From assembly GCA_019359045.1 (NCBI GenBank), contig JAHHIA010000012.1, positions 62,001 to 126,000 on the forward strand: a DNA stretch of 64,000 nt, given 5' to 3'. Made by a program: the position numbers and the translations under genes. Positions within the stretch are counted from its first letter, which is position 1. Each line of letters starts with the position of its first letter. The DNA comes from Scytolyngbya sp. HA4215-MV1 (GTDB lineage Bacteria; Cyanobacteriota; Cyanobacteriia; Leptolyngbyales; Leptolyngbyaceae). Below, piece by piece: positions 37,610 to 64,000 of the stretch. The notes beneath the pieces are model-generated. The model was not told the origin of the DNA. It saw nothing but the letters and a program-made list of their open reading frames with translations, and did not search any database.

Positions 37610-38317
37610 TCACCCCTCACTCCATACGGGATGATTCAACAAGGCATCAATCACCCGCACTCCGCGCAGTTGATTGGACAGCGGCAGATGCCCTTTGGGA
37701 GCGGAAAGATCCCAGGTAAACTCTTGAGGATAACGCGTCCAATTGTTGCCAGATTTCCAGCCAATCTGTGCCCAGAGCCGTTCCCAGTTTTTGCCCAGAC
37801 TGAGCCACAAGTCTCGTTGCACGGAGAAGCCAAATCTCCCTTCGGAGTAAACTAGCCAGAGGGTATTGATGGTTTGCAGGTCAAGATTGGGCAATGGCTC
37901 AATTTCGGTGAAATATAACCATCGTCTTTGCACCGCGTCTGTTCCCGCCAGTTCGCACAATTTGTGCAGAGTCATCTGGTCGGCAGTCTGAAAATATCGC
38001 TGAGCCAGTAGCTTTTGCAGCGGAGCGTAGTCAACATTTTGTGCCGATCGCAAAGGCACCACTCCCTCAGGAAAGTGTCGCTGAAGAAATTCGTTAGTTT
38101 TGGCAGAATCGACTGCTAACAACGCCTGGTAAGCCTTACCCGTTGCACAAGTGGGTTGAGGATGTGCCAAAAGAAATTCAGTTAATAAATCTAAACCAGT
38201 TTCTCCCAACCCGATCGCGGCTTCAATGAGAGGGAGTTGTTTATTCTCAGGCTCAGACCAGAGCTTTGTCCGCAGGTCTGTGAGGGGGTTAGAAGTATCC
38301 GGTGCTGAAGTCGTCAT
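37610..38317 (-). CDS. gun4: GUN4, magnesium-chelatase activator
   Basis: A 235-residue protein of the stand-alone GUN4 length (the Synechocystis protein is of about this size). The N-terminal all-helical bundle (residues 1-85) is followed by the GUN4 core: DYAPLQKLLAQRYFQTAD, then LDLQTINTLWLVYSEGRFGFSVQR (quoted here in two overlapping parts) and the WDLSAPKGHLP loop. GUN4 binds protoporphyrin IX and Mg-protoporphyrin and stimulates Mg-chelatase, whose ATPase subunit ChlI is encoded at 58172. It is convergent with mtnA. Confidence 0.93.
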   Translation of the reverse strand: MTTSAPDTSNPLTDLRTKLWSEPENKQLPLIEAAIGLGETGLDLLTEFLLAHPQPTCATGKAYQALLAVDSAKTNEFLQRHFPEGVVPLRSAQNVDYAPLQKLLAQRYFQTADQMTLHKLCELAGTDAVQRRWLYFTEIEPLPNLDLQTINTLWLVYSEGRFGFSVQRDLWLSLGKNWERLWAQIGWKSGNNWTRYPQEFTWDLSAPKGHLPLSNQLRGVRVIDALLNHPVWSEG

Positions 38318-61127: not shown

Positions 61128-61180
61128 AAAATACATATACTTTCAAAGCCCCCTTTTTAAGGGGGTTTGGGGGATCGAAT

Positions 61181-61240
61181 ATGCCTGAACTCAACTCCAG
61201 TCACTTTTATCTTCCCTATAACCGTCAAGCGCAAATCTAA
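61181..61240 (+). CDS. 19-codon minigene copy 1 (DUF559 N-terminal peptide)
   Basis: ATG to TAA within tandem unit 1; the peptide is MPELNSSHFYLPYNRQAQI. It repeats the N terminus of the downstream DUF559 protein and has the same leader. Translation is possible but unproved. Confidence 0.35.
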   Translation: MPELNSSHFYLPYNRQAQI

Positions 61241-61290
61241 ATACATATACTTTCAAAGCCCCCTTTTTAAGGGGGTTTGGGGGATCGAAT

Positions 61291-61350
61291 ATGCCTAAAC
61301 TCAACTCTAATCACTTCTATCTTCCCTATAACCGTCAAGCGCAAATCTAA
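61291..61350 (+). CDS. 19-codon minigene copy 2 (DUF559 N-terminal peptide)
   Basis: ATG to TAA within tandem unit 2; the peptide is MPKLNSNHFYLPYNRQAQI. Same leader and stop as copy 1. It could be a by-product of tandem duplication or a short upstream frame. Confidence 0.35.
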   Translation: MPKLNSNHFYLPYNRQAQI

Positions 61351-61400
61351 ATACATATACTTTCAAAGCCCCCTTTTTAAGGGGGTTTGGGGGATCGAAC

Positions 61401-61790
61401 ATGCCTGAACTCAACTCCAACCACTTTTATCTTCCCTATAACCGTCAACTGGTTGTGAGAGCAAAAGAATTACGTCAGCACCCTACCCCAGCGGAAAAAA
61501 AGCTCTGGCAAGACTGCCTTCAAACCTTGCCGTGGCGGATCTTGCGGCAACGTCCCATTGGTCACTTTATTGTGGATTTCTATTGTGCAGCTTTGAAACT
61601 GGTGATTGAGGTAGACGGGGAGAGTCACTTTACCGATGAAGGGCAGATGCGGGATTTGGAGCGAACGCAAATTTTAGAAAGCTATGGGTTAAAGGTAATC
61701 CGGTTTAGTAATGATGAGGTGATGCATCAATTTGAGGGAGTGTGTCAGAGAATTTGGGAGGAGATCCCTTTAAATTCCCCTTCAAAGTAG
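61401..61790 (+). CDS. DUF559 endonuclease-like protein
   Basis: A 129-residue protein of the DUF559/Vsr-like PD-(D/E)xK group. After FYLPYNRQLVVRAKELRQHP comes TPAEKKLWQD, then LRQRPIGHFIVDFYCAALKLVIEVDG with the catalytic Asp/Glu (in FIVDFYC and VIEVDGESH). Members are small nuclease-like proteins, common near repeats and mobile DNA; activity is seldom tested. The start is in the third tandem unit, so its leader exists in three copies. A second group of REP-like repeats follows. Confidence 0.85.
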   Translation: MPELNSNHFYLPYNRQLVVRAKELRQHPTPAEKKLWQDCLQTLPWRILRQRPIGHFIVDFYCAALKLVIEVDGESHFTDEGQMRDLERTQILESYGLKVIRFSNDEVMHQFEGVCQRIWEEIPLNSPSK

Positions 61791-62189: not shown

Positions 62190-62285
62190 TGAGCCGGTGC
62201 CAGGTAACAAATCGCCAGGAAGTTGATGATGTCGTAAGCAGCGAGTTGATAATAAATCTTTAGGAAAGTCTGAAGCGCTTATCTG

Positions 62286-64000
62286 CTAAAGTCTACAAGT
62301 CGTTGCGCGCGAGAAGAGAACCCACCGCGACCCCCACAACAACAACCCCCCCCCAACTATCCGCCCCCTCAACATCACCCGAGGAAACTCTCCCATGGGA
62401 GCTAATTCGAGGTTGTAGGTTAGGTTGTCTAAGTCCACCCACTTGCCCTCCTTGCGCCAGCCGACGCGATCGCCAAACTTTTCCCAGTCGTCATTGTAAT
62501 CCATTGGGCTACCGCATTCCTGCCAGATGCGTTTCTGCACACTAAAGCCCCATTTGCCATTGCTGTATCTCACCCACAAGCGATCGAGGGTTTGCAGGTC
62601 GTCGCAGGGAAAATTTTTCAGATCGGCGCGATCGAACCATTGCCCTTCTTCTTTGCCTACGGTGGTAATCATCAGCCGATAGGTTTCGTAATCTGCCTGC
62701 TTCCACTGTTGTGCTCTTAGCAACGCTTCTAACGTCTGATACTTGGAGTCTTGCGCCACCTTATCCAGGCTTTGCAAAAAGGACTGCAAATCTTCGCTCA
62801 GCTTTTCAGGACGGGGATACTCTTTCAGGCAAATCGTTGACAGGTCTGCGGCTTCGCTGCCCTGTTCACAGGCTTTGCGAATCACCTGATCCAGCAACCT
62901 GGGATTGAGTTGGGCCGTGTAGAGCAGTACGGTTTCTCGCCAGATGGCATGATTCCAGTTTTGCAAGACCAGTTGGGCGCTTTTTTTGATGCTGTCGATG
63001 TCCTGGGGCTGTGCCAGCCTTGTGGCAGCAAAAAAGCCCTGAAAGCTGGCATGGGGAAACTCGTATTCTCCCGGTTCTCGTTCTACCAGCAACTCGCTGA
63101 CCCCCAACATTTGCTTGAGCCAGGCGGCTGGATCGACTTCCTCTTGCTGCAAAATCGGGTTTTGGCTGAGAAACTTCAGCAAGCTCGGGTGGGAAATTTT
63201 GAGCCGCTTGCTCTGCACCATTGCCAGCGCCACAATCTGCAGAATCGTCTGGTTGTGGTCGAAGGACAACAGCATCCGAATCAACCGCGCTTTAGGGCGA
63301 TCGTCCAGTTGCAGTTTGCAGATGCCGCGATAGAGATCAATCCGCTGGCGAGGCAACTCCACTGAGGGATCAAAGCGATGAAAGGTCGCCAGCATGTTCA
63401 GCAACAGGGGATTTTCTGCCATGTAGCCCAGTTCTTGCCGACGCTGTTGCAGTTGGGCGATTAAGTTGTCTGCCCGTTCATTTGCCACCTCTTTGGCATG
63501 GCGACGTTGCTTTTCCGCCCGACAACAGCGTTCCTGACAGAGATACCAGCGGTGAATGAACTGCGCTTACTGTTGAGGATTGAATCTGTTGACAAAAATT
63601 GGGATGGTAGGTTGCTGGGCAACGTATTCCTTGAAGCCCGCCGGACGAGACGTGACAATAAACACCGATCGGTCATACTCCCGCATCTGAGCGCTGATCC
63701 AGTGGCTAACCTGGGGCCGATCTCCTTCTGGCAACTCATCAAAGCCATCCAGCATCACCAGTGCCGATCCACTGAGCAATAGCTTTTCTGCCCATTGAGG
63801 CGGGGCGGTCAAGGGATGGTTTTTTGACAAACTGGGCACATGAAACTCGGTAATTAGGGTTGGCAAACTGGGCGGTTGGGACTGGGTCAGTTCCTCCGTC
63901 CAATCGCGCAAGCGCAACAGCACGGGCACCAGTTTGGGAGCGCCATAGTGGCGCTGTTTCCGCTGTCCATAAATCAACGCCACATGCCGCAACAGGGTGG
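62286..64000 (-). pseudogene. NACHT NTPase with C-terminal GUN4 domain, one in-frame stop, 5' end outside
   Basis: The window holds about 570 codons of the 3' part. It enters at TLLRHVALIYG, the residues that follow a Walker A loop, so the P-loop lies just beyond base 64000. Walker B is ALVMLDGFDELPEGDRPQ, the NACHT form, and VFIVTSRPAGF is the next motif. A TAA at 63567-63569 breaks the frame after NRFNPQQ; the same frame goes on as AQFIHRWYLCQERC, the normal continuation, so this is a nonsense codon (one change from CAA), not a frameshift. GTG 63488 could restart. Helical repeats follow, then a GUN4 domain (LQTLDRLWVRYSNGKWGFSV) and the end FSRATTCRL. Confidence 0.85.

Follow-up and report, generated by a model that had tools for sequence, protein, structure and literature searches.

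A hypervariable block between conserved DNA borders in the fused GUN4 domains of cyanobacterial NACHT, caspase, kinase and TIR proteins

Introduction

DGRs are a well-known bacterial means of randomising a binding domain, and they hold length and reading frame constant while altering adenine positions only. In cyanobacterial conflict systems, GUN4 domains fused to caspase, kinase and TIR domains are described in the accessible text of several papers (Davison 2005; PMC7159879; PMC5756287), and NACHT and caspase partners were found here as well. Within that text, the fused GUN4 is regarded as a likely tetrapyrrole sensor (PMC7159879), and GUN4 and the DGR-diversified FGS (lectin-fold) domains appear side by side as alternative modules (PMC7159879; PMC5756287). 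According to the accessible part of a further study, accessory domains found in the targets of cyanobacterial DGRs include GUN4 (PMC7517822). As far as the accessible text of the published accounts goes, fused GUN4 is assigned a role in tetrapyrrole sensing or in signalling, and no variable region, frame-independent element or diversification was found described there. Our literature search for a GUN4 variable region, whose coverage left out most subscription papers and preprints, found no description either. The GUN4 fusion itself is already known; the hypervariable C-terminal loop reported here is apparently new, at least to us.

The window is the whole 64,000-nt stretch of DNA that was analysed (C17:62001-126000 of a 33-contig, 6.62-Mb genome), and reading was extended past its end as locus L006. 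The mechanism to which the last ~110 nt of one of its genes points matters more than the gene itself, and the tract and element found there had been missed by the initial annotation.

The NACHT-GUN4 gene of the window

The gene runs on the minus strand from a start at window-equivalent 64580 to an end at 62286 (L006:2286-4580); its 3' part occupies 62286-64000 and the remainder lies outside the window. Its product is arranged as an N-terminal region of about 90 residues with borderline hydrophobicity, NACHT, a helical middle part and GUN4. The NACHT match (PF05729, E 3.9e-11; residues 184-318, 43.5 bits against a Pfam cut-off of 26.7) covers 63627-64000 on the minus strand within the window and extends to about 64031, and the sequence examined beyond 64000 supplies both the P-loop GGMGKTT at the window edge and the gene start. 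The GUN4 match (62361-62753, minus strand; Pfam, E 1.9e-39) has its last residues within the variable block described below. For the C-terminal part, AlphaFold predicts a Gun4 fold (pLDDT 84, pTM 0.79; best solved-structure match 4xkc, TM-score 0.72), in which the residues beyond the GEFP motif are unstructured and are followed by a short terminal helix. The fusion of NACHT and GUN4 in one gene, proposed by the initial annotation from the letters alone, is thereby borne out by Pfam matches to both domains and by the predicted fold. Immediately upstream of the gene, at L006:4642-4894, lies an array of 21-nt direct repeats (TTGAAGTTGTCCTTACGTCTG).

The single in-frame TAA (63567-63569, minus strand), which precedes the GUN4 part and had also been noted earlier, is real in the assembly and is the sole split in the gene as assembled, with the 426 codons beyond it open. 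At this position, both intact NACHT-GUN4 paralogues (769 aa on C16 and 778 aa on C15) have K or R. The suggestion of a split gene stands insofar as the stop is present in the assembly; interruptions likewise occur in several homologues of other species (L012, L015, L023, L033, L040 and L041). The window copy is probably inactivated. The genome has eight GUN4 matches, comprising one canonical gun4, three NACHT, two caspase and one SEFIR/TIR type genes, and one fragment.

A variable block in place of the NQLRGVR segment

Near the 3' end of the window gene, three adjoining features are found on the minus strand: a 5' border, GGAGAGTTTCCT, at 62382-62393, which codes GEFP and is of the CACCTCCC type in most relatives; a G/T-rich hypervariable block (VR) of 64 nt at 62318-62381; and a conserved 3' DNA element, TCTTCTCGCGCGCAACGACTTGTAGACTTTAGCAGATAAGCG..., at 62270-62317, which is read here as LFSRATTCRL* and contains the stop codon. 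The canonical gun4 gene (37610-38317, minus strand) has GUN4_N plus GUN4, as the initial annotation of a bona fide GUN4 at 37610 implied, keeps LPLSNQLRGVRV and has neither VR nor 3' element. Of the two GUN4 genes in the window, it alone has GUN4_N and the LPLxNQLRGVR segment, and the NACHT-GUN4 gene fails the canonical Gun4 test. In the alignment, GHLP is followed directly by the VR at the position of LPLSNQLRGVRV in canonical Gun4, and in the VR-bearing fusions the canonical NQLRGVR segment is replaced by the variable block. Residues R214 and R217 of this segment are reported porphyrin contacts in Synechocystis Gun4. Given these contacts and the aligned position of the VR, the variable loop is expected to lie where tetrapyrrole binds. 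The earlier idea that the fused GUN4 senses tetrapyrroles is weakened, since the variable block takes the place of exactly this segment; the accompanying suggestion, that GUN4 serves as a binding module, is more plausible, albeit for a diversified module.

A 3' element conserved as DNA and read in three frames

We gathered 33 loci of NACHT-GUN4 relatives from public genomes, most of them with GUN4, together with 60 GUN4 regions from relatives, and scanned the phylum for the DNA motif (386 genomes, 88 with the motif). The tails of the relatives continue from G(H/E)(L/F)P into a hypervariable stretch and then into LFSRxETCxL, SLLSRRDL or SSLAQRLVxC, and these three endings are one DNA sequence, TCTTCTCTCGCGTCGAGACTTGTAAACTGTAACA, in three reading frames. 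Among 84 genes, the 3' element (TCTTCTCTCGCGTCGAGACTTGTAAA) is used 28, 35 and 21 times in the three frames, with no departure from equal usage (p 0.17), and gives tails of the SSLASRLVKC, LFSRVETC or SLLSRRDL kind. DNA identity of its 27-nt core in these genes is.80 within a frame and.81 between frames, as opposed to.36 in nearby upstream GUN4 coding DNA. Because part of the 84-gene set had been fetched by the DNA motif, the figures were recomputed with only those loci that had been retrieved by protein or GUN4 family, and the outcome was unchanged (.78 within and.78 between frames); the model of the element was trained on motif-fetched and non-motif-fetched sets. Codon choice points the same way: although Leu and Arg have six codons each, the genes of frame 0 use CTT for the former in 28/28 cases and AGA for the latter in 25/28, and at the 5' border His is CAC in 43/50 and Leu CTC in 37/50, compared with 11/30 and 4/30 in canonical gun4. 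Each frame of the element soon reaches a stop. It is as DNA that the 3' border is conserved, and all three of its frames are in use.

In loci fetched without the motif, 61 of the 98 non-canonical GUN4 domains carry the element, and there are no canonical gun4 genes among the element-bearing records. Six of the seven motif matches in the window's genome lie at GUN4 genes or the GUN4 fragment, the seventh being a 3-mismatch match elsewhere, and free cassettes of the element were not found in this genome. An RNA hairpin was considered for the element and rejected: the outer TCTC/GAGA pairs of the putative stem are nearly invariant, but its inner pairs are broken in 27-42% of the genes and there is no covariation support; a second putative stem has its pairs intact in 25-89%.

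Some loci have unusual arrangements. VRs are not limited to C termini, as a tandem-GUN4 protein (L178, minus strand, position 988 onward) carries VR and element in its internal GUN4, with in-frame read-through. A truncated GUN4 remnant (G000:C18:163447-163668, L056) retains a VR-like tract and the 3' element. At L180:1430-1520, the element occurs twice, 70 nt apart, with a short new G/T-rich tract preceding the second copy; this doubling may have been left behind by the replacement reaction proposed below.

Composition and reading frame of the variable block

VR statistics were based on the 84 genes, with decayed VRs and those >110 nt excluded and alignment A4, which has a misplaced row (L145), kept out. 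The blocks are 22-104 nt long (median 57.5) with a base composition of G.42, T.32, A.16 and C.10, and their codon-position bias is low (Cramer's V.04; the GUN4 coding DNA of these genes gives.13). Stops are found in 3 of 1595 codons in the GUN4 frame and in 170 of 3099 codons in the other two frames (p 2e-27), the latter count agreeing with the prediction from base composition. As many as 97.6% of the VRs are open, compared with 39% by chance, and their amino-acid make-up is near that of translated random DNA. The VR thus behaves like random DNA filtered for openness. The VR of L179 has an in-frame TAA at its start, as expected of a non-productive junction. No 14-mers are common to VRs at different loci beyond orthologues and two further pairs, which are taken as chance matches in G-rich sequence.

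Block replacement among relatives

Upstream DNA is 80% identical or more in 66 locus pairs, and the identities of their VRs are bimodally distributed: three pairs reach.86-.97, and the remainder are no closer than random VR pairs. This bimodality argues that the VR changes by replacement and not by gradual drift. One set of cases comes from genus g59, probably Microcystis, which was sampled with 12 species-level genomes. Its NACHT-GUN4 orthologues have ~95% identical DNA on both flanks, whereas their three VRs, of 71, 60 and 39 nt, are unrelated. One such pair (L176/L177) is 97.1% identical over 1374 nt on the upstream side and ~95-96% identical downstream. A fifth g59 genome (L241) has yet another VR along with an altered 3' border, and a second gene group in the genus has eight more unrelated VRs of 27-254 nt. 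Pairs with a replaced VR also occur outside g59 (L170/L171 and L021/L037). The block is replaced as a unit, with both flanks unchanged.

Replacement is occasional rather than constant, since some orthologues retain their VR (L180/L224, L174/L214, L176/L188 and L166/L169); in the orthologue pair L187/L188, the VR differs only gradually. Strain-level change on plasmids was looked for in a GUN4 gene of three Fremyella/Tolypothrix strains, which has no detectable element and is uninformative in this respect.

Partner domains and the link to defence

Among 30 element-bearing GUN4 proteins, the partners are NACHT (14), caspase (9), FGE-sulfatase (3), kinase (2), TIR (2) and SEFIR (1). These partners, together with the published conflict-system view of GUN4/FGS proteins, suggest that the VR may be a diversified recognition loop. 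The NACHT-GUN4 proteins resemble the bacterial NACHT antiphage proteins (bNACHT and EruA) in joining a NACHT NTPase to a variable C-terminal module; unlike these, they fall below the curated defence cut-off, with the intact paralogue scoring 18 bits versus 1000 in the bNACHT/EruA test. PADLOC model PDLC04062 (PD-T4-6) matches the window at 37610-38317 and 62286-63566. We rejected this identity as an artefact: the C-terminal third of the model is a GUN4 domain, and canonical Gun4 alone scores 5e-32 against that part. Since the model contains GUN4, PADLOC may report false PD-T4-6 systems in cyanobacteria.

The accessory character that had been ascribed to the NACHT-GUN4 gene is supported. The defence-type neighbourhood expected along with it is weak, with one defence-like gene within 14 kb and others mostly housekeeping; this gene, ~6 kb away, codes for another NACHT protein (NACHT + NCH2, L006:10864-13020, window-equivalent 70864-73020) with a sub-threshold match to antiphage EruA. 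The inspected neighbourhoods of GUN4 genes are mostly not defence islands, and no GUN4 relative was found in the phages searched. On a Cylindrospermopsis plasmid (L289, NZ_CP060823.1 8000-45000), four GUN4 genes, a kinase, HicA- and AbiEii-type toxin genes and transposases form what looks like a GUN4 array, and on a Microcystis plasmid (L284, NZ_CP046974.1) a GUN4-containing protein in which the element was not detected lies beside MoxR, DGR Avd and RT.

Origin of the variable block and rival explanations

The random block, the conserved borders and the frame-independent element are facts of the pattern that we hold to be practically certain. We contend, with a probability of roughly 0.6, that the GUN4 loops of a STAND/caspase/kinase/TIR repertoire are diversified by wholesale swap of a random 22-104 nt block between DNA borders. 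A DGR, by which mutagenic reverse transcription of a template repeat would rewrite the tail at an IMH-like site, could account for the 3'-end location and the conserved 3' border, and it gains some weight from the avd and RT adjoining the Microcystis plasmid protein and from the listing of GUN4 among accessory domains of DGR targets in the accessible part of PMC7517822. That plasmid protein has no element match, however, and the VRs vary in length (22-104 nt), in frame and at nearly every base. The genomes searched yielded no template copy, and no RT was detected by PF00078 (E 0.001), which AbiK-type RTs could escape, in the element carriers G265 and G283; the only full-length RT of the window's genome carries an HNH-like part at its C terminus, in the manner of group II introns, and the other is a decayed fragment. 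Status as a DGR target was rejected, with neither a template repeat nor a DGR RT nor adenine-specific change at constant length and frame being found among the genomes and loci searched, and this origin is highly improbable. Gene conversion or cassette exchange, by which VRs would be shuffled among GUN4 paralogues or a mobile pool via common borders, fares better in that border DNA is common to many GUN4 paralogues per genome, GUN4 genes lie on plasmids and GUN4 gene arrays exist. The lack of 14-mers common to different loci (orthologues and two pairs apart), of codon-position structure in the VRs and of free element cassettes in the window's genome speaks against it. Moreover, three VRs are single-copy in their own genomes (one of them complete) and two are absent elsewhere in 12 genus genomes: beyond chance-level matches, no second copy was found of the G131 VR in 12 genomes of its genus, of the G416 VR in its complete genome or other genus genomes, or of the window VR in its own genome. 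With no common VRs and no donor in these three genomes, paralogue shuffling was discarded, and exchange as a whole appears unlikely. The lack of a second VR copy, together with the lack of an RT in two carriers, argues against both a DGR and same-genome donor shuffling, so that for the genomes searched untemplated synthesis becomes the simplest reading; a donor pool beyond the sequenced genomes is conceivable.

Two further explanations would deny the tail a function. Slippage or drift in a dispensable G-rich tract, with small indels shifting the frame as in a contingency locus, is suggested by G-runs, by internal repeats in the VRs of L223 and L230 and by the gradual difference between L187 and L188. 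Yet changed VRs are unrelated instead of partly alike, and a dispensable tail would neither be open in 97.6% of cases nor keep its 3' DNA conserved in every frame; we rate this somewhat below cassette exchange. An ordinary NACHT-GUN4 tetrapyrrole sensor, represented here by a pseudogene with functionless tail variation, would agree with the accessible description of GUN4 fusions in PMC7159879, with the retained GUN4 core fold and with the stop codon of the window copy. It leaves the frame-independent element, the block replacement and the stop depletion unexplained, however, and the NQLRGVR segment of canonical Gun4 is replaced in the fusions; this is less probable still, although ahead of a DGR.

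Proposed mechanism

The statistics of the VR fit untemplated nucleotides between fixed borders, and we lean slightly towards such an origin. In a swap of the kind that we favour, DNA would be cut or nicked at the borders (5' CACCTCCC, 3' TCTTCTCTCGCNNNGAGACTTGTRRA), a cut end would be lengthened without a template to give a G/T-rich coding strand and a C/A-rich other strand, and rejoining to the 3' border would follow, with non-productive junctions removed by selection. The VR loop and the helix from whichever frame would then form a variable ligand surface at the canonical Gun4 tetrapyrrole site, where ligand binding might act as a switch for the NACHT NTPase, caspase, kinase or TIR to which GUN4 is joined, with phages or other invaders as the most likely targets. 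That a dedicated, RT-independent cyanobacterial system cuts receptor genes at the frame-independent element and inserts untemplated random sequence is a tentative proposal, to which we give slightly less than even odds, and an immune-type receptor role of the VR-bearing GUN4 proteins is conceivable to the same degree.

A possible, albeit weak, lead to a partner of the VR system is a DUF559 gene (Vsr-like PDDEXK endonuclease) at 61401-61790 on the plus strand, convergent with the GUN4 gene and lying ~500 nt downstream of its stop. The 495 kb of flanking DNA contain three DUF559 genes, all <1 kb downstream of GUN4 genes (the window, L010 and L036); uniform placement would produce this with a post-hoc probability of about 3e-4. 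The g59 NACHT-GUN4 gene likewise has one. Beside the DUF559 gene, the window also has three tandem 110-nt repeats with CCCCCTTTTTAAGGGGG palindromes (61129-61458).

Comparison with known systems and significance

The GUN4 system shares with DGRs a localised 3'-end hypervariability in receptor-like genes, a conserved 3' border, the host group and the partner domains; it differs in having a VR for which the genomes searched hold no template, in needing no RT as far as tested, and in that length, frame and all bases vary. With the junctional (N-region) diversity of vertebrate V(D)J recombination it would have in common random nucleotides inserted between fixed ends, a frame set by chance and the loss of non-productive products. 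It is not homologous to V(D)J recombination with its RAG, RSS and TdT, and its changes are seen between species and not between cells.

If the proposal is true, this would be a second, template-free bacterial route to randomised receptors, attached to NLR-like and caspase proteins, and random receptor diversification by inserted nucleotides would have arisen in bacteria too. It would also point to a new DNA-editing enzyme that may be useful in directed evolution. The binding loops of a whole cyanobacterial repertoire of receptors, of the NACHT, caspase, kinase and TIR kinds, would then be randomised, as a counterpart of junctional diversity, and the fused GUN4 domains would no longer be simple pigment sensors.
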